Positions 40,408-59,503 of a stretch of 64,000 nucleotides of DNA are shown in pieces. The notes beneath the pieces are model-generated. The model saw only the letters and a program-made list of their open reading frames with translations, searched no databases and was not told the DNA's origin. A program made the position numbers and the translations under genes. This DNA comes from a virus. Within the stretch, counting starts at the first letter, position 1; each line of letters opens with the position of its first letter. The DNA is taken from the IMG/VR virus record IMGVR_UViG_3300005099_000066, positions 1-64,000 of that record. One strand, given 5' to 3'.

Positions 40408-42888
40408 ATGTATTCAGAAGGATTTGTAGAATTTAGAGATGCTGTTGCAAGAGAAAAGTATTTTCTTGAAGGAGAAGAAAGCTGGGATGATGTAATAAAA
40501 AGAGTATCAAATGAGATTGGAAATTTTCTCGAAAACAAGTTAAAGCATGAAAACAAGGGAAATTTATATAGGGAGATGTATGGCGACAAATCCCCTTCAG
40601 AAATCTTCTATAACATGATGTCCCAGAATATATTTATTCCAGGAGGCAGAATTCTATATGGAGCGGGCAATCCCAATAAAGTGACATTAACAAATTGTTA
40701 TGTCTTACCTTCTCCAGATGATTCTATTGAAGGTATAATGAAGCTTGCTACTGAAATGGCTTTGACTTATAGGGCAGGCGGTGGAGTTGGATTTGATATT
40801 TCATCCTTAAGACCAGAAGGCTCTCCTGTGAGAAACGCAGCACGAACATCCACAGGAGCCTGGAGTTTTATGGAGTTGTATTCTTTAATAACAGGTATAA
40901 TAGGACAAGCAGGTAGAAGAGGTGCTTTGTTAATAGCTATGGATATATCACATCCAGATGTTCTGAAATTTGTATCTGCTAAATCAATAATTTCTCCCAA
41001 TAATAAAAAGTTTCTACAGCAGGCTTCCTATTTTGGTTGGACTCCAGAACAATTGGAGGCAGCAGAAAAGATACTTACTATGTCACAAATAAGGTTTGCT
41101 AATCTATCTGTGAAACTTACTGATGAATTTATGAAAGCAGTGAAAGCAGGAGAGGAGTGGGCTTTCAGATGGAAAGGGAAAGTTATGAAAACAATGCCAG
41201 CCAGAGATGTGTTTAAGTATATTGCTGAATTTGCCTGGAAAACTGCTGAACCAGGGATTTTATTTGTAGATACTGCTAAAAGATATTCAACAACTGAATA
41301 TTTTTCTCCTATTGTTAATACAAATCCTTGTGGAGAACAGTGGCTTGGAGCTTATGGGAATTGTAATCTGGGGGCAATAAATGTTGGAAGTCCAGTCTTC
41401 TTTAGAGATGGATTTTTTGATTATGTTAATTTTGGTTACTACATAAAAGTAGCAATTTTGTTTATGAATGCTGTAATCTGGTATAATCTTGATAGACATC
41501 CTCTCCCTGAGCAAAAGAAAACTGCTGAAAGGGAAAGAAGAATTGGGCTTGGAATAATGGGATTGGCTGATGCTTATATAAGAAAAGGAGTTGAGTATGG
41601 AGAAGGGAGTTTTACTTCCAAGCTTGCTGAAGTTCTTGCTTATTATGCTTATTCAGCGAGTATACAACTTTCAAAAATATTTGGTTCATTTCCTGATTAC
41701 GACCCAGATAAACATTTTGAACAAGAGTATTATAAAAGACTTATTGAAGAATATCCAGAATTTGAGAATTTATTTAAAGAAGCAAAAGAAGTGGGATTGG
41801 CGAACTCTGCTCTTCTAACAATAGCTCCTACGGGAACTACTTCAATAATGGCAGGTGCTTCATCAGGTATAGAGCCTGTATTTGGATGGAAAGTCCAAAG
41901 ATGGTTTGAAACAGCAGGCAAAATGTTTGAATTTTACCATCCAGTATATTATGAGTATATAAACAATAACTCTGATGAAAAGCTACCTGAGTATTTTCAA
42001 ACTTATGCTGATGTTGATTATAGAACAAGATTGGATACTCAAGCAATTTTACAGAAATTTATTGACAATTCTATTTCTTCGACTGTGAATTTGCCTGAAT
42101 CTGTTAGTGTTGAAGATATAGAAAATCTGTATATGGAGGCATGGGAAAAGGGATTGAAAGGCATAACAGTTTACAGAGAGAATAGCAGATTTGCCGTAAT
42201 CAAAAAGAAAGATGAAAAGTCAGAGGAAAAACAAGAAAAGAAAGAGAAAAGAGAAGAACTCAAGATATTTATACCTGCTCCAAAAAAGGCAGGGCTTGAA
42301 GGAAAAAGATATAGATTCAAATATAAAGACACAGGAATATACATAATGGTATTTGGAGAAAACAATGTTCCCAGGGAAGTATTTCTGGGTAGTAAAAATT
42401 TGAAGTGTTGGGATTTTGCTATTGCTTTGAATACAACTCTGTCAGAAATTCTCAGAAGTCTGCCTGAGGATTTGGCAATAACATTTGCTAAAAGAATGGT
42501 GAAAAAGTATAAATCATTATCTACGGGAGATTCTGCTTTTATATTTGGAGAGAAGCTTGGCTCAGTTGTGGGATTGTGGGGTTTGGCTTTGGATTGGTAT
42601 ATGAATGGAATTGACCCAAATGAACTTGAGGAAGAAATAAAGAGAAGCCTTCTAACAGTGAACATCCCAAATAAGCCAAAGCCTTCTCTAAAAACTTACA
42701 ACAGCAGTTTTGTTGTTTTATATGAGGGATTGGATTTGAAAAATGGAGCAGAACTTCCAAATGACGCAGTTATTTCGAGATGTCCTTCTTGTGGTGCTAA
42801 ACATATAACAAAGGGAAGACCATATTCGTTTGATTGTGAACATCCCTGTATGGTTTGTGGTTATTCAGAAAAATGTCCAGGAGATTGA
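40408..42888 (+). CDS. nrdJ: Class II (adenosylcobalamin-dependent) ribonucleotide reductase
   Basis: 826 residues. Key residues of the ten-stranded barrel are visible: NCYVLP (Cys 97) and NCNLGAIN (Cys 319), the redox pair; NPCGEQ (Asn 306, Cys 308 as thiyl radical site, Glu 310); and TIAPTGTTSIMAG. The absence of an NrdB partner, the one-chain layout and the C-terminal TSCPD-like part with a terminal zinc ribbon (CPSCGAKH, then CEHPCMVCGYSEKC) indicate the B12-dependent NrdJ. It makes dNTPs for phage replication, with or without oxygen, provided the host has B12. AAGGAGGAG lies upstream of ATG 40408. Confidence 0.92.
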   Translation: MYSEGFVEFRDAVAREKYFLEGEESWDDVIKRVSNEIGNFLENKLKHENKGNLYREMYGDKSPSEIFYNMMSQNIFIPGGRILYGAGNPNKVTLTNCYVLPSPDDSIEGIMKLATEMALTYRAGGGVGFDISSLRPEGSPVRNAARTSTGAWSFMELYSLITGIIGQAGRRGALLIAMDISHPDVLKFVSAKSIISPNNKKFLQQASYFGWTPEQLEAAEKILTMSQIRFANLSVKLTDEFMKAVKAGEEWAFRWKGKVMKTMPARDVFKYIAEFAWKTAEPGILFVDTAKRYSTTEYFSPIVNTNPCGEQWLGAYGNCNLGAINVGSPVFFRDGFFDYVNFGYYIKVAILFMNAVIWYNLDRHPLPEQKKTAERERRIGLGIMGLADAYIRKGVEYGEGSFTSKLAEVLAYYAYSASIQLSKIFGSFPDYDPDKHFEQEYYKRLIEEYPEFENLFKEAKEVGLANSALLTIAPTGTTSIMAGASSGIEPVFGWKVQRWFETAGKMFEFYHPVYYEYINNNSDEKLPEYFQTYADVDYRTRLDTQAILQKFIDNSISSTVNLPESVSVEDIENLYMEAWEKGLKGITVYRENSRFAVIKKKDEKSEEKQEKKEKREELKIFIPAPKKAGLEGKRYRFKYKDTGIYIMVFGENNVPREVFLGSKNLKCWDFAIALNTTLSEILRSLPEDLAITFAKRMVKKYKSLSTGDSAFIFGEKLGSVVGLWGLALDWYMNGIDPNELEEEIKRSLLTVNIPNKPKPSLKTYNSSFVVLYEGLDLKNGAELPNDAVISRCPSCGAKHITKGRPYSFDCEHPCMVCGYSEKCPGD

Positions 42889-42908: not shown

Positions 42909-43112
42909 ATGCCTACTTATATTTACAAATGTAAAAAGTGTAGTTATATATTTGAAAAGGAATTTAAAGTAGGTGAAGTCAGAAAGAATTTACATTCTTC
43001 TGAGTTGCAAAAGTGTCCAAAATGTGGAGGAGAAGTTTATAGAATTTATACTTCTCCCTCACTCAGATTTGTAGGTTCTGGATTTTATGTAAATGATTAC
43101 AAGGGAAAATGA
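42909..43112 (+). CDS. FmdB-type zinc-ribbon protein
   Basis: 67 residues: MPTYIYKCKKCSYIFE, then CPKCGGEVYRIYTSPSLRF, the CxxC...CPxCG pattern of the FmdB/Zinc_ribbon_8 family. Found as a single-domain regulator-like protein in many bacteria; role in phage unknown. Confidence 0.8.
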   Translation: MPTYIYKCKKCSYIFEKEFKVGEVRKNLHSSELQKCPKCGGEVYRIYTSPSLRFVGSGFYVNDYKGK

Positions 43113-43152
43113 GTTGGAAATTGAATCTAATGAAATAGGGGAGGTGAAAAGA

Positions 43153-43539
43153 ATGAATAAAAAATTGAAAGAATTTTTTGAAAGTCTGCCAAAAATAGAA
43201 GTGCTGAAAATGACTTCCCTTTCAGAATTCGAAGAGCCATTTTCATTGATGTTTGAGTTGTATATGGCAAAGAATAAAGGTTATGGAGCTTCCTGGAGAA
43301 AGAGAGGAATTCCAAGTTCTTTTGAGAATATAAGCAGAAAATATGACAGACTTCTTGTTCAAGTAGAAAAATCTAATTTTCATCCAGAAAATCTTTCAAA
43401 TGAAGAAAAACTTGATTTCTTTGATACGGCAATTGACCTTGCTGTGTATTCATATCTTTTTCTTTGGTTTGTATATGATTTGTTTGGAGAAGAAATAGTA
43501 AAGGAGTGGAGAAAGAAAGTAGGATTGGAAAATGGATAA
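43153..43539 (+). CDS. Nmad1/DUF1599-like nucleotide-modification-associated protein
   Basis: 128 residues: NKGYGASWRKRGIPSSFENI, a K..RLL turn, then KLDFFDTAIDLAVYSYLF. This matches DUF1599 (nucleotide modification associated domain 1), described by Iyer and co-workers in phages with modified bases, though its biochemical activity is not known. GGGGAGGTG sets ATG 43153 (43093 in the same frame is inside the previous gene). It sits directly before the DNA polymerase and overlaps it by 8 nt. Confidence 0.75.
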   Translation: MNKKLKEFFESLPKIEVLKMTSLSEFEEPFSLMFELYMAKNKGYGASWRKRGIPSSFENISRKYDRLLVQVEKSNFHPENLSNEEKLDFFDTAIDLAVYSYLFLWFVYDLFGEEIVKEWRKKVGLENG

Positions 43540-45910
43540 AACTCTGAGAGAAGAATGTAAAAATTGTATATTCTTCAATAATGCGTATGTTCCTCCAGAA
43601 TATCCTTTTGGTGATGAAAAAATTGATGTTTTGTTTATAGGAGAAGCTCCTGGGGTAGAAGAGGAAAGACTTGGAAAGCCATTTGTGGGAAGGTCAGGCC
43701 AATTATTTAGAGATGCTCTTGCTGAATTTATAAAGGAATTTCCTCATCTGAAATTTGGAATAACAAATGTTGTGAAATGCCATCCTCCCAATAATATGAC
43801 TCCCAAATCAGCTGAAATAAAATTGTGTAAGCCTTTGCTTCTTGATGAGATAGAGAAGTATGACCCAGATTTTATAATACCTTTAGGAAACACAGCTCTT
43901 CAAGCAATAGTTGGAAGGGCAGGTATTCAGAAAAATTTAAATCAAGTTATAACTAAAGTTGTTGCTGGAAGGGAGAGAACAATAATACCAACTTTTCATC
44001 CTGCTGCTATTTTAAGAAATCCTCATCTATTACAAGATTTTGTGAGAACATTTGGTATATTAGAAAAGATAATGAAAGGACAGGTTCTTGAGTTGGAGGA
44101 TTTCATAGTTGTAGATGATTTTAGGAAGATTGAAAATATGTTGAATGATTTATCAAATTCTAAAGCATTTGCTTTTGACCTTGAGACTTCTTCTTTGAAT
44201 CCTTTTTCTGAGAATGCCAAAATTCTTTGCTTGTCTTTGTCAAATGGGAAAAATACTTATGTTATCCCTGCTAAAGATTATGAGATGTCTAATCTGATTG
44301 ACTTGTTAAAAATTGTTTTTTCCCTTCCAGCTAAAAAGATTGCTCACAATGCGAAATTTGATGTGAAATGGTTAAAAGTTTTTGGTGTGGAAGTTAAGAA
44401 TCTGGCTTTTGATACTATGATAGCCCACTATTTGATTAATGAAAATTTGCCTCACTCTCTGGCTTTTATTCTATCTGAAATGGGATTTGTTGACCACAAA
44501 GGAGATTTTTCAAGAGCTGTTGGAGGGGAAACTGCTACTTGGAAGGTGTTATCTGATGAAGAAAAGCTTAATGAATACTGGGATGTTCTTCTTGAGTATA
44601 ATGCGAAAGATGCTTGGTCAACTTATTTAATCTATGAGAAATTAAAAGATAAACTCGAATCAAGTCAGGTTTGGTTAATGGAAAATTTTTATATTCCTTT
44701 GATATACACATTTTCAGAAATAGAAATTTATGGGATGAAAGTTGATTTGAATAGAATCCAGTATTTATCCCAGAAGTATAAGAATGAAATGAAGAAAATT
44801 ATATCTGAAATGGAAAATTTATCGTCCGTCAAATTTTGGAAGACTCTACATCCTGATGAAAAATTTAATCCATCTTCGACAAAGCAAGTTGCTGAAATTA
44901 TTTTTGATATAGAGAAATTAGAAGTTATTGCTATGACTCCGAAAGGAGCACCATCGACAAAGAGTGAATTTCTTGAATTTCTTGCCTCGAAATCGAAATT
45001 TGTTAAATTGTTGTTAGAATATAGGAAAATTATGAAAAACGAAACTGCTTTTATAAAAGGCATTCAAAAACATATAAAAATAGATGGATGTGTTCATCCC
45101 TCTTATAATCTTATTGGAACAGTGACGGGCAGAATATCTTGTAGAGAGCCAAACATACAACAGATACCAAAAGATTCAGAAATAAGAACAATATTTGTTC
45201 CAAAACTTGATTGGTTTATAGAAGCTGACTTTTCACAAATAGAGTTAAGAGTTGCTGCTTCTTTGTCTGGGGACCCATATATGATTGATGCTTATAAAAA
45301 AGGTGAAGACTTACATACAAAAACTGCTTCTTCCATATTTGGGAAGAGACCAGAAGAGGTTTCAGAAGAAGAACGATTTGTGGCAAAAACTATTAATTTT
45401 GGTATTTTGTATGGAATGGGAGCAAAGAGTTTACAGGCAAGAGTTTCCAGAGAAGGAATAAATATACCTTTGAAAAAGGCAGAAGAATATATCAGAAAGT
45501 TCTTTATAGCCTATCCTGTTTTGAAAGCTTGGGTAGATGAGCAAAAATCAAAAGTTCTTGGTTCCAGAATGGTAGTGTCTCCTTTTGGAAGAATTAGAAG
45601 ATTAATGGGAACTTCTGATGATGATTTGAGACAGGGTGTAAATGCTCCTGTTCAGGGAACTGCTTCTGATTTAACTTTGTTTTCTGTGATGTTTCTTCAC
45701 AATGAATTTAAAAGGAGAGGTTTGAAATCCCATATAGTAGGTTCAGTTCATGATTCAATATTATTTGATGTGGCTGATGAAGAATTACACTGTGTTGTGA
45801 CTCTAATAAAACAGATAATGGAAGGACTTGATTTTGATTTTATAAAAGTTCCTTTGAAAGTAGATGTTGCAATAGGAAAGGCATGGGGAGAAATTTTAAT
45901 GGAGGTATAA
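43532..45910 (+). CDS. Uracil-DNA glycosylase / DNA polymerase I fusion
   Basis: 792 residues, three units. (1) Residues 1-190, a family 4-like uracil-DNA glycosylase: Fe-S cysteines C9, C12, C83, C99, the motif GEAPG (38-41) with KPFVGRSGQL, and FHPAAILRNP (His 156). (2) A DEDDy 3'-5' exonuclease: FDLETSS (D216, E218), HNAKFD, YNAKDAW. (3) A family A polymerase: motif A EADFSQIELRVAA (D566), motif B AKTINFGILYG (Phe at the ddNTP-gate position) and motif C VGSVHDSILFD. It should copy the phage genome, and the front domain may remove or sense uracil. Phage SPO1 polymerase, from memory, has a similar N-terminal domain. The all-motif-intact glycosylase part is unusual. Confidence 0.92.
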   Translation: MDKTLREECKNCIFFNNAYVPPEYPFGDEKIDVLFIGEAPGVEEERLGKPFVGRSGQLFRDALAEFIKEFPHLKFGITNVVKCHPPNNMTPKSAEIKLCKPLLLDEIEKYDPDFIIPLGNTALQAIVGRAGIQKNLNQVITKVVAGRERTIIPTFHPAAILRNPHLLQDFVRTFGILEKIMKGQVLELEDFIVVDDFRKIENMLNDLSNSKAFAFDLETSSLNPFSENAKILCLSLSNGKNTYVIPAKDYEMSNLIDLLKIVFSLPAKKIAHNAKFDVKWLKVFGVEVKNLAFDTMIAHYLINENLPHSLAFILSEMGFVDHKGDFSRAVGGETATWKVLSDEEKLNEYWDVLLEYNAKDAWSTYLIYEKLKDKLESSQVWLMENFYIPLIYTFSEIEIYGMKVDLNRIQYLSQKYKNEMKKIISEMENLSSVKFWKTLHPDEKFNPSSTKQVAEIIFDIEKLEVIAMTPKGAPSTKSEFLEFLASKSKFVKLLLEYRKIMKNETAFIKGIQKHIKIDGCVHPSYNLIGTVTGRISCREPNIQQIPKDSEIRTIFVPKLDWFIEADFSQIELRVAASLSGDPYMIDAYKKGEDLHTKTASSIFGKRPEEVSEEERFVAKTINFGILYGMGAKSLQARVSREGINIPLKKAEEYIRKFFIAYPVLKAWVDEQKSKVLGSRMVVSPFGRIRRLMGTSDDDLRQGVNAPVQGTASDLTLFSVMFLHNEFKRRGLKSHIVGSVHDSILFDVADEELHCVVTLIKQIMEGLDFDFIKVPLKVDVAIGKAWGEILMEV

Positions 45911-46249: not shown

Positions 46250-47302
46250 ATGTTAAACATAGATAAACTGAAGAAGGACCTCGAAAAACTGTCTACTCCA
46301 GAAGGACCAAGCATAAGATGGATGTATCCTCCTGAAGGAGTCACCAGAGTGAGAATACTTCCTGCTCTTTTTGGCAGTGATGTATTCTATGAAATAGTAG
46401 CAAGACACAGAGTTCCTGATTCTGAATCCCCCAGAGGAATTAAATCATACATCTGTAAAAAGCTGACATTTGGACAGGAGTGTCCTATCTGTTCTGCTTA
46501 TGAAATTCTACAGAAAAGCAAGTCCGCATACAACATAGATGATAAATTGATAAAGAGTCTAAAGCCATACTTTAGAATCTATGTAAATGCTATCATAAAG
46601 GGATGGAAAAGGGCACTACAAGACCCAACATTCATTTACCCAGACACATTTCCCCCTGAACAGCCTGTTCTTCTTGTTATCCCTCAAACAGTTCATACCC
46701 AAATTTTAAATTTGATTCTTGGAGAGTATGGAGATATAACTGACCCACAGAATGGAAGGGATATTGACATTGTTAGAACAACAGTAGGAAATAGAACAGA
46801 ATATTCAGTTCAGCCAGTTCCCAATCCATCTCCTATTGAAAATGCTTCTGAGATATTCCAGAAAGCTTATGATTTAAAATCTGTCGTTGCTGAGATGGAT
46901 GAAGATTACGAATCCTTACAGGAAAGATTTCTCCAGGGTATACTTGGGGCTTCTACTACAAATATTTTGGCAGGAGTCATAAGTAATATTCTTTCTGGGT
47001 ATGCTCCACAGCCTTTGACTTCTCCGACTCCTTCTGCTCCGCCAACTCCAACTCCTACTGTTCAACCAACTCCTCCTTCACCTACCCCTACTGCAAAACC
47101 GACTGTTCCTCCGACTCCTACACAAGCTCCAACAGTTCCTCCGACTCCAACAACTCCTTCAAGTATACCTATTCCAGAACCTCAAACTCCTCCTTCTCCA
47201 ACTCCTACTCAAGAAACTTCAAAATCAACTCCGACATCCCCAGAGAATCTCAGACAAAAGTTGGAAGAGTTAAAGAAGAAATTCTCAAAAGGAAGTTCAT
47301 AA
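46250..47302 (+). CDS. gp32-like single-stranded DNA-binding protein with Pro/Thr-rich linker
   Basis: 350 residues. The core (about 20-185) has IRWMYPPEGVTRVRILP, then a metal-binding Cys cluster YICKKLTFGQECPICSAYE, as in T4 gp32-type SSBs with a zinc site, plus PYFRIYVNAI strands. Residues about 258-333 are a PTP/TPPTPT-type repeat linker, followed by a charged helix (LRQKLEELKKKF). The linker replaces the usual short acidic tail. It should coat ssDNA in replication and recombination; the linker would give long reach to partner proteins. AGGAGGTG lies upstream of ATG 46250. Confidence 0.78.
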   Translation: MLNIDKLKKDLEKLSTPEGPSIRWMYPPEGVTRVRILPALFGSDVFYEIVARHRVPDSESPRGIKSYICKKLTFGQECPICSAYEILQKSKSAYNIDDKLIKSLKPYFRIYVNAIIKGWKRALQDPTFIYPDTFPPEQPVLLVIPQTVHTQILNLILGEYGDITDPQNGRDIDIVRTTVGNRTEYSVQPVPNPSPIENASEIFQKAYDLKSVVAEMDEDYESLQERFLQGILGASTTNILAGVISNILSGYAPQPLTSPTPSAPPTPTPTVQPTPPSPTPTAKPTVPPTPTQAPTVPPTPTTPSSIPIPEPQTPPSPTPTQETSKSTPTSPENLRQKLEELKKKFSKGSS

Positions 47303-47303
47303 A

Positions 47304-47678
47304 ATGGTTTTGAACATAGAGAAAGTTGGAACTACAATAAAAGCTGATATGAATGGAATTGTTTTACACTTTGACCCAGAGACTTTGCTTCAGCCACCAA
47401 CGCAATTGATAGCTCTTAAGTATCAGTGGGGTTTGGTTAAGTCTGAAATAGAGAGAATAAAAAGATACCTCGATTTTGAAGTGAAGAAAACCAAAGCAGA
47501 AACAATAAAATCTTTGATGAGTTCAGGTATGTCAAAGACTGCTGCCTCTGAAGAAGTTGTCCTTGATTCAGCGTATCAGAACAAAGTTCAGCAACTTCAA
47601 ATATATGAATATTGGTCAGATTTGGTTTATCAAGTTTTATCAGCACTTGATGGAGCAATCAATGCAAGGGGAGAATAG
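47304..47678 (+). CDS. UvsY-like recombination mediator (predicted)
   Basis: 124 residues, helical. The end YWSDLVYQVLSALDGAINARG closely follows T4 UvsY's YW..LL.....ALDAIKSRG, and the front has a matching W...K.EI.RI...L pattern (YQWGLVKSEIERIKRYLDF). UvsY loads UvsX on gp32-coated DNA; here it lies between the SSB and RecA-like genes, exactly the partners it would need. The call rests on alignment by eye from memory. Confidence 0.6.
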   Translation: MVLNIEKVGTTIKADMNGIVLHFDPETLLQPPTQLIALKYQWGLVKSEIERIKRYLDFEVKKTKAETIKSLMSSGMSKTAASEEVVLDSAYQNKVQQLQIYEYWSDLVYQVLSALDGAINARGE

Positions 47679-47691
47679 GAGAGCCTATAAA

Positions 47692-48672
47692 ATGGACATA
47701 AAAATGGACGAAGTAGCCAAAAAGTTGAGTAAGGAAGCTGGGGTGGAGATTGTTCCTCCACCCCAAGTTCCTCACGAGAGGATACCTACGGGAATAGCAC
47801 CTCTTGATTGGTTAATAGAAGGAATTCCTTTATCTGCTGTCACAACTTTCTTTGGTCCTGAATCTTCTGGTAAAACTACGATTGCTGCTTATGTTGCTGC
47901 TAAATTTCAGCAAATGGGAGGTATAGTCTCTTGGATTGATACTGAATACTCTTTTTCTACTGAATATTTTCAGAGAATTGGTGTGAATACGAAAAATCTT
48001 TTATATACAGTTGGTGTTACAGTTGAACAAGCATTTAAGGTAATGGAAACAGTCATTGGATTTTCTCTTGAAAATGACCAGCCATGTCTTGTTGTGTGGG
48101 ATTCAATTGCTGCTACTCCATCAGAGGAAGAAGAAAGCAGAGCTTTTGATGAAAATACAGTTGCTGCTGCTGCGAGAGCACTTTCAAAAGGATTTAGAAA
48201 GTTGTCTGTAAAACTTGCGAGGCAACCAAAAGTTGCTTTTTTGATGATAACACAAGTAAGGGAGGATATTGGTGGTTCCATTTATGGAACTGGATATGAT
48301 ATGTATGGAGGCAGAGCATTAAAGCATTATCATATGCTTGCTCTGGAGTTTAGAAGAGTTGGGTATATCAGAGAAGAGATACCAGGAGTGAAAGCCCAAA
48401 TATTGGTTGCTAAATCAAAGCTTCCGAATGCTCCTATGCTGAAAGGTGTTTCCCTTTATATCAATTATGGTTATGGAGTTGATGAAGGGAAGTCTTTAGT
48501 TGATATAGCAAAGGATTTGGGATACATAAGAGTTCAGGGTGGATGGTGGAAATTTTCTAAAGGTGATTCCAAAGCTTATAGAAGAAATGAAATAGCATTG
48601 GAGTTGTTAAAAAATGAACACAAAAAAGCTTTGGAGTTGCTATGGAGAGAGAAAAACAAACCATCCATATAG
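47692..48672 (+). CDS. RecA/UvsX-like strand-exchange recombinase
   Basis: 326 residues. Walker A GPESSGKT (K61, T62), a Walker B strand PCLVVWDSIAATP, then ARALSKGFRKL and MITQVREDIGGSIYGTGYD (the L2-like loop), GGRALKHYHMLALEF. Typical of phage and bacterial RecA-fold recombinases. GGAGAG supports ATG 47692; an in-frame start at 47557 lies within the UvsY-like gene. It would catalyse homologous pairing for recombination-dependent replication and repair. Confidence 0.88.
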   Translation: MDIKMDEVAKKLSKEAGVEIVPPPQVPHERIPTGIAPLDWLIEGIPLSAVTTFFGPESSGKTTIAAYVAAKFQQMGGIVSWIDTEYSFSTEYFQRIGVNTKNLLYTVGVTVEQAFKVMETVIGFSLENDQPCLVVWDSIAATPSEEEESRAFDENTVAAAARALSKGFRKLSVKLARQPKVAFLMITQVREDIGGSIYGTGYDMYGGRALKHYHMLALEFRRVGYIREEIPGVKAQILVAKSKLPNAPMLKGVSLYINYGYGVDEGKSLVDIAKDLGYIRVQGGWWKFSKGDSKAYRRNEIALELLKNEHKKALELLWREKNKPSI

Positions 48673-54992: not shown

Positions 54993-56228
54993 TTGAAAGC
55001 AAACATTGAAAAATATATTTTGAATACTATGTTAATTTCTCCTTCACATTGTATTGATTTAATAGATTTGGGAGTGGACAAATATGTTGAACATCCTATA
55101 ATAAAACCAATTGTTTCTTTCATATCCTCCTATTATAGACAACACAAAAAGATTCCTCCTGCTGATTTGATAGTAGAAAATTTCCCACAACAAAAATACT
55201 TTCTTTCTGAGATTGTTAACCTTGAGCCTGCTCCTGATTGGGCTGTTTCTGAAGTAGAAAAATTTGTAAAAACGGTAAAGGTTCAGAAATTAACTGAATT
55301 TATTCTAACTAATTCAAGCAATCCGAAAATAACTCCTGAAGAGTTGTGGGAAAAGGGAAGAGAAATTTTGAGATTAAGAACTCCTTCAAGACTTGGAGTT
55401 GATTATTTTTCTGAAATTCCAAGACCATATTATGAAAAATTTCATCCAGAAAGTTTGGAGAACATTATTCCTACTGGACTTGTAAAGCTTGATGAATTGA
55501 TGTATGGAGGAATGAGGAAAGGATGGTTTGGATTTGTTATGGGTGGAACTGGAATGGGAAAATCTGCTCTGTTAATAAATTTTACGGCAAATGCTTTGTT
55601 GTTCAATAAAAAGGTTTTATACATTTCTTTGGAAATGTCTGTTGATGAAGTTATGCTGAGAATTGATGCTAAACTGACAGGCAAAACAATGGAAGAATTA
55701 TCTAATCCAAGTATGGATAATTATTTGAGGCAATTTCTTTCTATGGTAAAACAGAAATATACAGAAGCAAATTTGAGATTGATTTACTTTCCTTCGAAGA
55801 GTATAACTGTGAACAAAATTCCTTCAATCATAGAATCTTTTCAGATGATAAATTTCAAACCAGATTTGCTTGTTATTGACTTTGCTGATTACTTTGCTCC
55901 CCTTTCTAAAAGAAATTCGGCATGGGAAGAGGTAGTTGATACATTTCAGGTTCTGCCAGGATTTGCTAAAGAATATGATATGGCAATCTGGACTGCTACT
56001 GAAATAGGAAAAGCAAAAATGTATAACGAACAGGCAACAATAGATACTATGTATGGTGGTTCAGGAAAATCTTTTGGTGCTGATATTATTTTGGGAATAT
56101 CTGCTACTAAAGAGGAAGCAAGGCTTGGTGGTTTAAGATTAACTGTGTCGAAATTTAGACATGGAAGAAGTTTAATTGACATTCCTGTGTTTTTTGATAG
56201 AGCAAGAATGTTAATAAAAACCTTATAA
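54993..56228 (+). CDS. dnaB: DnaB-like replicative helicase
   Basis: 411 residues from TTG 54993, nine bases after AGGAGGTG. A helical N-domain (about 1-120) is followed by a RecA-fold ATPase: Walker A GGTGMGKSAL (K190), EMSVDEVMLR, Walker B LLVIDFADYF, WTATEIGK and TVSKFRHGRS (arginine-finger region). It unwinds the fork; the primase partner is encoded in the other arm. Confidence 0.87.
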   Translation: MKANIEKYILNTMLISPSHCIDLIDLGVDKYVEHPIIKPIVSFISSYYRQHKKIPPADLIVENFPQQKYFLSEIVNLEPAPDWAVSEVEKFVKTVKVQKLTEFILTNSSNPKITPEELWEKGREILRLRTPSRLGVDYFSEIPRPYYEKFHPESLENIIPTGLVKLDELMYGGMRKGWFGFVMGGTGMGKSALLINFTANALLFNKKVLYISLEMSVDEVMLRIDAKLTGKTMEELSNPSMDNYLRQFLSMVKQKYTEANLRLIYFPSKSITVNKIPSIIESFQMINFKPDLLVIDFADYFAPLSKRNSAWEEVVDTFQVLPGFAKEYDMAIWTATEIGKAKMYNEQATIDTMYGGSGKSFGADIILGISATKEEARLGGLRLTVSKFRHGRSLIDIPVFFDRARMLIKTL

Positions 56229-57141: not shown

Positions 57142-57639
57142 ATGAGGGAATTAACAGCATATCATATAACTATAAGAAAGGACAAAGTATCATGGCCAAA
57201 TGATAGTTTCAGGTCTGCTGAACATCAATTTTATAAATGTAATGATGGTAAAATAATAGTAGTTGCGAGTGACCCTTTCCTTATTCTTGAAAGATTAAAA
57301 ATGGGAGATGTTGTCGAAAAAATAGAAGTTTTGGGAACTGGATATGTTTTCCAAAAGAGACCATCACTTTCAGAATTTGTTGATTTTGTGAGTTGTTACA
57401 AGGAAACTTTAGAAGAACTAAACAAAGCTATATCAGACAAATTTGGAGAAATGAAAACTGAAATCGAGTTTGATAAAAAAGTTATGTTTATTACTATTTA
57501 CTCAACTCTCACTCCAGCTGAAACGTGGAACAGATTAGATAGAATATGCAAACAATTTGACTTTGCTGAATTGCCCATAGTCATAAGAATTGAACATGTT
57601 GATAGTGATAAAGAACCAAAAAAGGTGGTAACATTATGA
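57142..57639 (+). CDS. Hypothetical protein
   Basis: 165 residues; mixed alpha/beta, two possible ferredoxin-like halves. ATG 57142 follows AGGAGGTGATAAAG (GTG 57133 is in the binding site). Coupled to the dUTPase-like gene by ATGA. Confidence 0.6.
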   Translation: MRELTAYHITIRKDKVSWPNDSFRSAEHQFYKCNDGKIIVVASDPFLILERLKMGDVVEKIEVLGTGYVFQKRPSLSEFVDFVSCYKETLEELNKAISDKFGEMKTEIEFDKKVMFITIYSTLTPAETWNRLDRICKQFDFAELPIVIRIEHVDSDKEPKKVVTL

Positions 57640-58160
57640 AAAGTGAAACTGCTTTCTATTTGATGCAAATATTTATGGACAAATATAATGAAGTATTGCC
57701 AGGGGGAATCGAGGTTAAAAGAACTGACGAATTCCATCAATTTTTTGATTCGATGGAGTGGATTTATGAATTTCTTGAGAGAAAGAATATACCGAAAGAT
57801 AAGTTCGAATTGGTATGGGAAGCACAAAGAAGATTAAGAGAATTCTACAAAAGGGCAAGACCAGAGTGGTTTGAAGAATCTAATCTCCAGAGGGCAATAA
57901 CAAAAACAATTGCTATGCTTGTTGAGTCAGCTGAAACTTTGAATGAACTTCCCTGGAAACCTTGGAAATCGAAGGAGTTTAACAGGAAGAAAATTCTTGA
58001 GGAGTTTGTTGATGTCTTTCATTTCTGGATGGATGCTCTACAGGAAATGGGCTTTACGCTTGATGAAGTTGTTGACTGTTATATTAAGAAATGCAGAAAG
58101 AACATAGTTAGACAATACAAACATGAAGGATATAAATCAAAAACTTTGGAGGAAAAATAA
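57636..58160 (+). CDS. Dimeric all-alpha dUTPase-like NTP pyrophosphatase
   Basis: 174 residues, all helical. LVESAETLNELPWKPWK and EEFVDVFHFWMDALQEMGFT hold the E-x-x-E and E-x-x-D metal-binding motifs of the dimeric dUTPase/MazG superfamily (dUTPase_2-like), then a typical DCYIKKCRKNIVRQ end. It likely hydrolyses dUTP (or a modified dNTP), preventing its insertion by the polymerase, and feeds dUMP to the thymidylate-synthase-like enzyme encoded about 320 nt downstream. Confidence 0.8.
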   Translation: MKSETAFYLMQIFMDKYNEVLPGGIEVKRTDEFHQFFDSMEWIYEFLERKNIPKDKFELVWEAQRRLREFYKRARPEWFEESNLQRAITKTIAMLVESAETLNELPWKPWKSKEFNRKKILEEFVDVFHFWMDALQEMGFTLDEVVDCYIKKCRKNIVRQYKHEGYKSKTLEEK

Positions 58161-58483: not shown

Positions 58484-59503
58484 ATGACTATTGTTATCAA
58501 ATCAAATAATTTCTTCGAGGCAATAAATGAGGTATTCTTTCTCATAAAGGATAAAGGAAAAGTCAGAAAAACAAGAAACACAGAATCTGTCTATATACCT
58601 GATTTAGTTGTTATTGATGTAAAAGACCCAACTAAATTTACTTCATATCCCCATCCTTCCAGGAAGGTTTTTCCTCCTGCTCAATTTTATGAAGTTGCTT
58701 GGGTATTATCTGGAAGAAATGATGTGTTGGGATTGGAATTGGTTTTGAAAAGGGCAAGACAATTTTCTGATAACTTTCATCAATGGAGAGGAGGGTATGG
58801 TCCCCGAATACATTGGAATAGAAATATATTTAAGATAATAGAATTGTTAAACAAAGACCCAGAAACAAGAAGAGCAATCCTTCCTATATTTTTTCCAGAG
58901 GATGTCGAAGCAACTCATTGGTCTTTGGATATTCCTTGTTCGATTATGATTCACTTCCTTCCCATAGATGATAGGCTTGATGCAAGATTTTTTATCAGAA
59001 GCAATGATGCCTTCTGGGGCTTTACTCATATAAATTTCGTTCTGATAAGAACAATCCAGAGAATAGTTGCTTATTTCTCAAACAAAAAGGTAGGACATTT
59101 ACAATACATTGCTTCAGATTTGCATGTTTACAAAAGGCATATGAACAGACTTGAAAAAATATTGAAAAGTGTTGTCTTTCCTACTTTAGTTAAATCATAC
59201 CCCTGGGATGTCTTTGAGGATAATGAATTTGATAGTCCAGAAAGTTTCTTTAAGATTTTACAAAGAGATTTGGCTGTGCTTGATTATGTTTTGATGGATA
59301 AGTCAATAAAGAAAACAAAAAGCAAATTTTTACTTGATTCAAAACCTGCTGATTACTTATTGAATTCCCCTCTCAGAAGATGGTGGCTTCCCATTTTGGC
59401 TTGGAAGAAAGGTAATTTGGAAATTATGAAAGAATATATTGATAATGTTGAAGAAACTGATGTATATGAGGCTTTGGAACTATGGATGAGAAAAGAACAA
59501 TAA
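58484..59503 (+). CDS. Thymidylate-synthase-like dNMP C5-methyl/hydroxymethyltransferase
   Basis: 339 residues. FYEVAWVLSG, RRAILPIFFPED, SLDIPCSIMIHFLPID (nucleophile Cys 152) and RSNDAFWGFTHINF correspond to the ThyA core, and DLHVYKRH to the H-x-Y motif. In ThyA the Asn that selects dUMP (Asp in dCMP hydroxymethylases) sits 8 residues after the conserved Asp; here that position is Ile with Asn one later, so base preference is unclear. The RSND form is typical of phage members, and the end after residue 260 diverges. It could make dTMP or a hydroxymethyl pyrimidine. Confidence 0.78.
   Translation: MTIVIKSNNFFEAINEVFFLIKDKGKVRKTRNTESVYIPDLVVIDVKDPTKFTSYPHPSRKVFPPAQFYEVAWVLSGRNDVLGLELVLKRARQFSDNFHQWRGGYGPRIHWNRNIFKIIELLNKDPETRRAILPIFFPEDVEATHWSLDIPCSIMIHFLPIDDRLDARFFIRSNDAFWGFTHINFVLIRTIQRIVAYFSNKKVGHLQYIASDLHVYKRHMNRLEKILKSVVFPTLVKSYPWDVFEDNEFDSPESFFKILQRDLAVLDYVLMDKSIKKTKSKFLLDSKPADYLLNSPLRRWWLPILAWKKGNLEIMKEYIDNVEETDVYEALELWMRKEQ

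Follow-up and report, generated by a model that had tools for sequence, protein, structure and literature searches.

The polymerase gene and its neighbours

The window analysed here, 64,000 nucleotides of the IMG/VR virus record IMGVR_UViG_3300005099_000066, carries on its plus strand a single frame (43532-45910) that begins with ATG, contains no internal stop codon and encodes a protein of 792 residues in which a uracil-DNA glycosylase (UDG) domain precedes a 3'-5' exonuclease and a family A DNA polymerase. The UDG domain (43532-44086, residues 1-185, with limits in the protein at residues ~8-185) was recognized from its match to PF03167 over residues 25-166 (E-value 1.3e-29, 103.5 bits against a Pfam cut-off of 24.3), from family 4 structures related to it in sequence and fold, and from its cysteines. 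It is followed on the same strand by the exonuclease (44108-44659, residues 193-376; PF01612, 2.9e-24, 86.3 bits) and the polymerase (44780-45892, residues 417-787; PF00476, 3.3e-96, 323 bits), both scoring over their Pfam cut-offs. In an alignment of 44 sequences, residues D216/E218, D277 and Y356/D360 of the exonuclease and D566, K619 and D741 of the polymerase occupy invariant columns. By these scores and catalytic residues, the protein qualifies as a family A DNA polymerase with 3'-5' exonuclease; in a fold search with the AlphaFold2 model of the whole fusion (pLDDT 91.5, pTM 0.88), the polymerase part matched the Klenow fragment 1kfs with Z 41.4 over 568 residues. The profile of the phage DNA polymerase family PHROG 17 (phrog_17) spans residues 27-787 continuously (2.5e-159), so the UDG belongs to a recognized phage polymerase family, and the single chain is a phage UDG-PolA fusion of the PHROG 17 type. 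Chance or artefact as the origin of the fusion is ruled out by the single open frame and by matches far above the Pfam cut-offs, and the three-part fusion is confirmed. The initial annotation of a complete family-4-like glycosylase in front of an intact exonuclease and polymerase was borne out by Pfam and structures as well as by the cysteines and pocket residues described below.

The polymerase belongs to a gene run that includes, upstream, an adenosylcobalamin-dependent (class II) ribonucleotide reductase (40408-42888, plus strand; TIGR02504, 5.8e-137, above cut-off), at the C-terminal end of which a cysteine-rich, zinc-ribbon-like stretch can be seen by eye. Another upstream gene on this strand (43093-43539) shares its last 8 nt with the start of the polymerase gene, and its product weakly resembles 'nucleotide modification associated domain 1' (Nmad1) proteins of Maribacter phages (2e-3, tblastn) and matches a protein of Maribacter phage Colly_1 (1.1e-8, phmmer). 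Also on the plus strand are genes for a gp32-like single-strand DNA binding protein (46250-47302; PF08804, 2.6e-11) with a long proline/threonine-rich tail, a RecA-like recombinase (47557-48672; PF00154, 8.5e-40) and a DnaB-like helicase (54993-56228; PF03796, 7.2e-15); the surroundings of the polymerase hold SbcD/C-like proteins, RuvC and an SNF2-type helicase as well. The GC skew, negative up to ~24000, flips sharply to positive there, coinciding with a change of coding strand. An (E+K)/(Q+H) ratio of 4.27 and a charge bias of 0.068 are only suggestive of a thermophilic host.

As initially annotated, the same phage has dUTPase-like and thymidylate-synthase (TS)-like genes, which encode a dUTPase_2-like protein (57636-58160, plus strand; PF08761, 5.1e-15) and a divergent TS-like protein (58484-59503, plus strand; PF00303, 1.2e-16). 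The latter is closer to pyrimidine hydroxymethylases than it is to ThyA: it shares 29-31% identity with SPO1-type hydroxymethylases (8e-18 to 9e-20, against 4e-11 for canonical ThyA), CMP 5-hydroxymethylase is the solved structure nearest to it, it is also near the Montesquieu / Sa157lw-type enzymes, and its best phage records include annotations as 'pyrimidine hydroxymethylase' and 'deoxyuridylate hydroxymethyltransferase'. It keeps the cysteine and, close to the PFN position of ThyA, an asparagine. Canonical ThyA was rejected as its identity, with scores below cut-off in all NCBIfam TS models and no ThyA tryptophan segment IWDEW, in place of which it reads ..ARQF and the SPO1 type ..MGQF. 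The kinship of this enzyme with hydroxymethylases had been missed by the initial annotation. The phage may carry modified pyrimidines. A single protein of Glutamicibacter phage Montesquieu (L196:8905-10545), annotated as TS/pyrimidine hydroxymethylase, matches both the Nmad1-like protein (5.2e-5) and the TS-like protein (1.6e-34), and this double match hints at a functional link between the two. The phage's own record gave no family match to ThyX or dCMP deaminase, and its 76,948 bases, which may be incomplete, contained no match to the AP endonuclease families PF01261 and PF03372.

The uracil-DNA glycosylase domain

The sequence of the UDG part alone matches family 4 UDGs of solved structure (4zbx at 3.8e-26, as well as 1l9g, 1vk2 and 1ui0). 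Since polymerases filled the fold searches with the whole-protein model, the UDG was modelled separately (AlphaFold2, pLDDT 88.3), and this model matched 1ui1 (Z 23.3), 1vk2 (23.2), 1ui0 (23.0) and 4zbx (22.8), the Thermus, Thermotoga and Sulfolobus family 4 enzymes together ranging from 22.7 to 23.3. The UdgX structure 6l6s ties with family 4 in this search (Z 23.4) and TDG/MUG score clearly lower (~14). The predicted fold is thus that of the UDG superfamily and comes closest to family 4. UdgX, whose hallmark is a KRRIH loop with a covalent histidine, was rejected as an identity, because this loop is absent from the translation of the fusion and the UdgX model scores the domain lower than the family 4 models do.

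All four Fe-S cysteines are present on the plus strand, C9 (43556-43558), C12 (43565-43567), C83 (43778-43780) and C99 (43826-43828), and we infer that they bind a cluster. Motif 1 reads GEAPG (residues 37-41, 43640-43654), with E38 corresponding to E41 of Thermus UDGa; the stretch from N79 (Thermus N80), which lies in an ITNVVKC segment, to N88 (Thermus N89) is encoded by 43766-43795; and motif 2 reads FHPAA (residues 155-159, 43994-44008), with H156 corresponding to Thermus H155. In the published work on Thermus UDGa (PMC5387724), the key positions are E41, G42, E47, F54, N80, N89 and H155, the second of which holds Gly or Ala; the losses caused by mutation lie between ~6-fold for N89A and more than a thousand-fold for H155S (in k2), and E47 is compared with Y66 of E. 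coli UNG. At these seven positions the fusion has E38, A39, E44, F51, N79, N88 and H156. Its pocket residues, including E44 (Thermus E47), are those of a narrow-specificity uracil enzyme.

The profile search upheld the assignment to UDGs made by the initial annotation as far as PF03167 is concerned, but the isolated domain did not reach the curated cut-offs of the NCBIfam family 4 models TIGR00758 and NF040953, scoring 119.2 against 125.3 bits (family 4 cut-off) and 126.4 against 250 (Arch_udg). Because of these scores, the domain seems best termed 'family-4-like'.

Fused glycosylase domains among viruses

The initial annotation had called the joining of a glycosylase to a polymerase striking. 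The architecture is, however, common in phages: tblastn of the UDG part matched 82 phage records, with SPO1 and its relatives, several environmental phages, Thermus phage phiLo and a virus attributed to Methanomicrobiales among them, and a UDG-part match was found in or beside the polymerase at 71 of 80 IMG/VR loci, these being the best 80 of a longer list ranked in a profile scan by similarity to the fusion protein. A published case exists in phage PaBG (PMC7412058). A megablast of 36001-58500 against phage records gave no match, and a scan of viral contigs with the single protein found no relative. When cellular genome contigs were searched with the same profile and the best 80 loci kept, no match to a cellular polymerase began before query residue 158 (80/80), and none of these 80 spanned most of the UDG part.

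The survey sample consisted of the best 80 IMG/VR loci and 19 chosen phage records, and the fractions given here are valid for this sample; 99 rows were aligned and 91 scored. Rows were left out as duplicates (L050, L092, L098), as cut at a contig end (L066, L099), as having no UDG part (L070, L079) or as ambiguous (L009), and L019, a UDG that stands free of any polymerase, was kept out of the alignment. For L020, L052, L055, L060 and L090, where phmmer detected no UDG part, the score of degenerate comes from the alignment only, and L006 was set intact by hand, its segment ending before an HP motif that its sequence contains.

The four cysteines are kept in 81 of the 91 scored viral sequences. 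Together with E38, N79 and H156 they are kept in 45/91, and with E44, F51 and N88 as well in 29/91, the fusion of the window belonging to both groups. One or more of the catalytic residues E38, N79 and H156 is lost in 36 of the 81 four-cysteine sequences, often by E to K or H to S or A, so keeping the domain does not require catalysis. In the SPO1 types both the cysteines and N79 are gone. Across 92 rows (L009 included), conservation amounts to 0.88-0.91 in the cysteine columns and 0.49-0.70 in the catalytic ones. By direct comparison, 19 domains of the intact class share only 29-40% identity with that of the window. On an exonuclease-polymerase tree of the 'quick' type, in which 32/93 forks are weak and two long branches are joined, there are at least 13 changes of the intact state, and the window's fusion forms a long separate branch, with the nearest row at 38% identity. 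These patterns suggest two states of the fused domain, a functional enzyme and, in many lineages, a scaffold that has been kept; the window's copy is of the first class.

Many of the UDG-polymerase phages (L002-L101) encode a divergent TS no more than ~4 kb upstream of the polymerase, and most of these TS proteins have an aspartate in place of the ThyA PFN asparagine. An aspartate at this position would fit a cytosine-type hydroxymethylase. Judged on 80 whole records and the flanks of all loci, many of the records being fragments, and with the ordinary ThyA of StAshley not counted as divergent, a divergent TS accompanies 14/45 intact and 37/46 degenerate UDG sequences (raw Fisher p 2.4e-6). 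A link between divergent TS and loss of UDG catalysis was nevertheless rejected, independent pairs on the polymerase tree giving a median p of 1. At L008:1727-4361 and L016:3917-6859 the UDG-polymerase gene comes in two pieces and is possibly intron-split, as is SPO1 gp31; at L059:1887-4333 the UDG and the polymerase occupy two overlapping frames, which points to a split gene or else a frameshift in sequencing.

Possible roles and known relatives

We consider it rather probable that the domain is a polymerase-tethered, family-4-like Fe-S UDG that removes plain uracil at or near the polymerase, as a second defence behind the dUTPase. Placed where bacterial Pol I carries its 5' nuclease, it would flip out and excise plain uracil, derived from dUTP incorporation or cytosine deamination, from DNA at or near the polymerase, thymine and 5-substituted pyrimidines being spared by the intact pocket. 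Presumably active, and acting during replication with the dUTPase behind it, the tethered UDG would clear uracil where and when it enters DNA. Each excision would leave an abasic site for repair, and as no phage AP endonuclease of the two families was found, this repair would have to fall to the host. The identity of the domain by sequence and fold, the seven Thermus UDGa positions, the intact core shared by 45/91 sequences and the dUTPase_2-like protein of the same phage all support such an eraser; the 36/81 sequences without catalytic residues, the missing AP endonuclease match and the scores under the family 4 cut-offs count against it. The initial annotation had left the choice between a guard against uracil and a sensor of a modified pyrimidine, of which plain uracil removal is the likelier and sensing, considering the narrow-specificity pocket with E44, the less likely.

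The strongest rival, which we regard as doubtful, is a mainly non-catalytic role in which the UDG would bind DNA beside the polymerase, serving processivity or fork positioning, with any excision as a leftover. Homologues that keep their cysteines and have lost catalytic residues (36/81) argue for it, as does the better conservation of the cysteine columns. A precedent is the UDG of vaccinia virus, which acts in this way together with A20. That viral UDG is reported to have a role in replication that is independent of catalysis (PMC1936997). On the other hand, the window's copy and 44 other sequences have retained the catalytic core despite deep divergence, which a structural role alone does not explain.

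It is unlikely that the phage DNA holds a 5-hydroxymethyl pyrimidine and that the fused UDG removes uracil escaping modification, enforcing base identity. Consistent with this are the TS-like protein, nearest to SPO1-type hydroxymethylases (9e-20 vs 4e-11 for ThyA), to CMP 5-hydroxymethylase among structures and to phage records annotated as hydroxymethylases, the Nmad1-like gene overlapping the polymerase start, and the Montesquieu protein matching both. However, the window's phage gave no match to the genes for glucosyltransferase and pyrophosphorylase that Colly_1 and Montesquieu carry, the UDG domain is degenerate in SPO1-type phages and in Colly_1, and the divergent TS sides with the degenerate class (37/46 vs 14/45) with no signal left after kinship. 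A composite, in which an active eraser in a 5-hydroxymethyl-pyrimidine phage uses its glycosylase to proofread base identity, the domain having decayed elsewhere, repeatedly, to an Fe-S DNA-binding module, also strikes us as improbable. Finally, a sensor of uracil or modified bases that would pause the polymerase without cutting, for which the read-ahead pocket of archaeal family B polymerases is an analogue and the shared chain an argument, is very improbable, since the domain has the full catalytic set of a narrow-specificity uracil-cutting enzyme and a pure binder would have no need of H156.

If active, the polymerase-tethered eraser would be a natural polymerase able to erase uracil, useful for asking whether a replicase can include uracil repair. 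The occurrence of intact and dead fused domains, both with Fe-S cysteines, makes it testable whether the domain is retained for uracil cutting or for DNA holding, and this division, on which no paper was found in the open-licence literature, is the part that specialists might use.

Among known systems, the family 4 UDGs (Thermus UDGa 1ui0, Thermotoga TM0511 1vk2 and Sulfolobus 4zbx) share fold (Z ~23), cysteines and pocket with the window's domain, but they are free enzymes, whereas this one is joined to a polymerase and lies just under the NCBIfam family 4 cut-off. In the polymerase of Thermus phage phiLo (PDB 9qhs, 2026, entitled 'phiLo family-A DNA polymerase with modified template') a UDG precedes a family A polymerase, as here; its match to the window's UDG domain has Z 16.2 over 161 residues, and the cysteines and the equivalents of E38, N79 and H156 are kept, although the protein has 1175 residues, a serine at the N88 equivalent and a very distant polymerase. 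Bacillus phage SPO1 gp31 has the identical three-part order and is homologous throughout, and its relatedness at the front domain, already noted in the initial annotation, was confirmed by tblastn (30.8% identity, 7e-13). Its four cysteines and N79 equivalent are gone, however, and for this reason it is a poor model for the activity of the window's domain. SPO1 is a hydroxymethyluracil phage, and its record annotates a dUMP hydroxymethylase.

Among named phage records, the best full-length match (32.8% identity over 98%) is the DNA polymerase of Manatee Spring phage MW202455.1, which has the full pocket and cysteines, as in the window's fusion, but comes from a circular genome of 44 kb in which ThyX, thymidylate kinase and a 'pyrimidine hmase synthase' are annotated. 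In the replication region of Colly_1 nine open frames match window genes, with polymerase, Nmad1-like, TS-like, RecA, SbcC/D-like, DnaB-like and primase genes among the matches; the front of its polymerase, in contrast, has neither the cysteines nor the catalytic motifs, and Colly_1 possesses a beta-glucosyltransferase. DNA polymerase I (gp205) of Pseudomonas phage PaBG and the Lupandier group consists of an N-terminal UDG, a 3'-5' exonuclease and a polymerase, the domain order of the window's fusion, but these are jumbo phages and the likeness is one of architecture (PMC7412058, the sole publication on such a fusion found in the open-licence literature). The UDG-polymerase architecture is already known, from PHROG 17, SPO1, phiLo and PaBG, and the window's fusion is a new, deep-branching and well-preserved example of it, not a new kind of enzyme.
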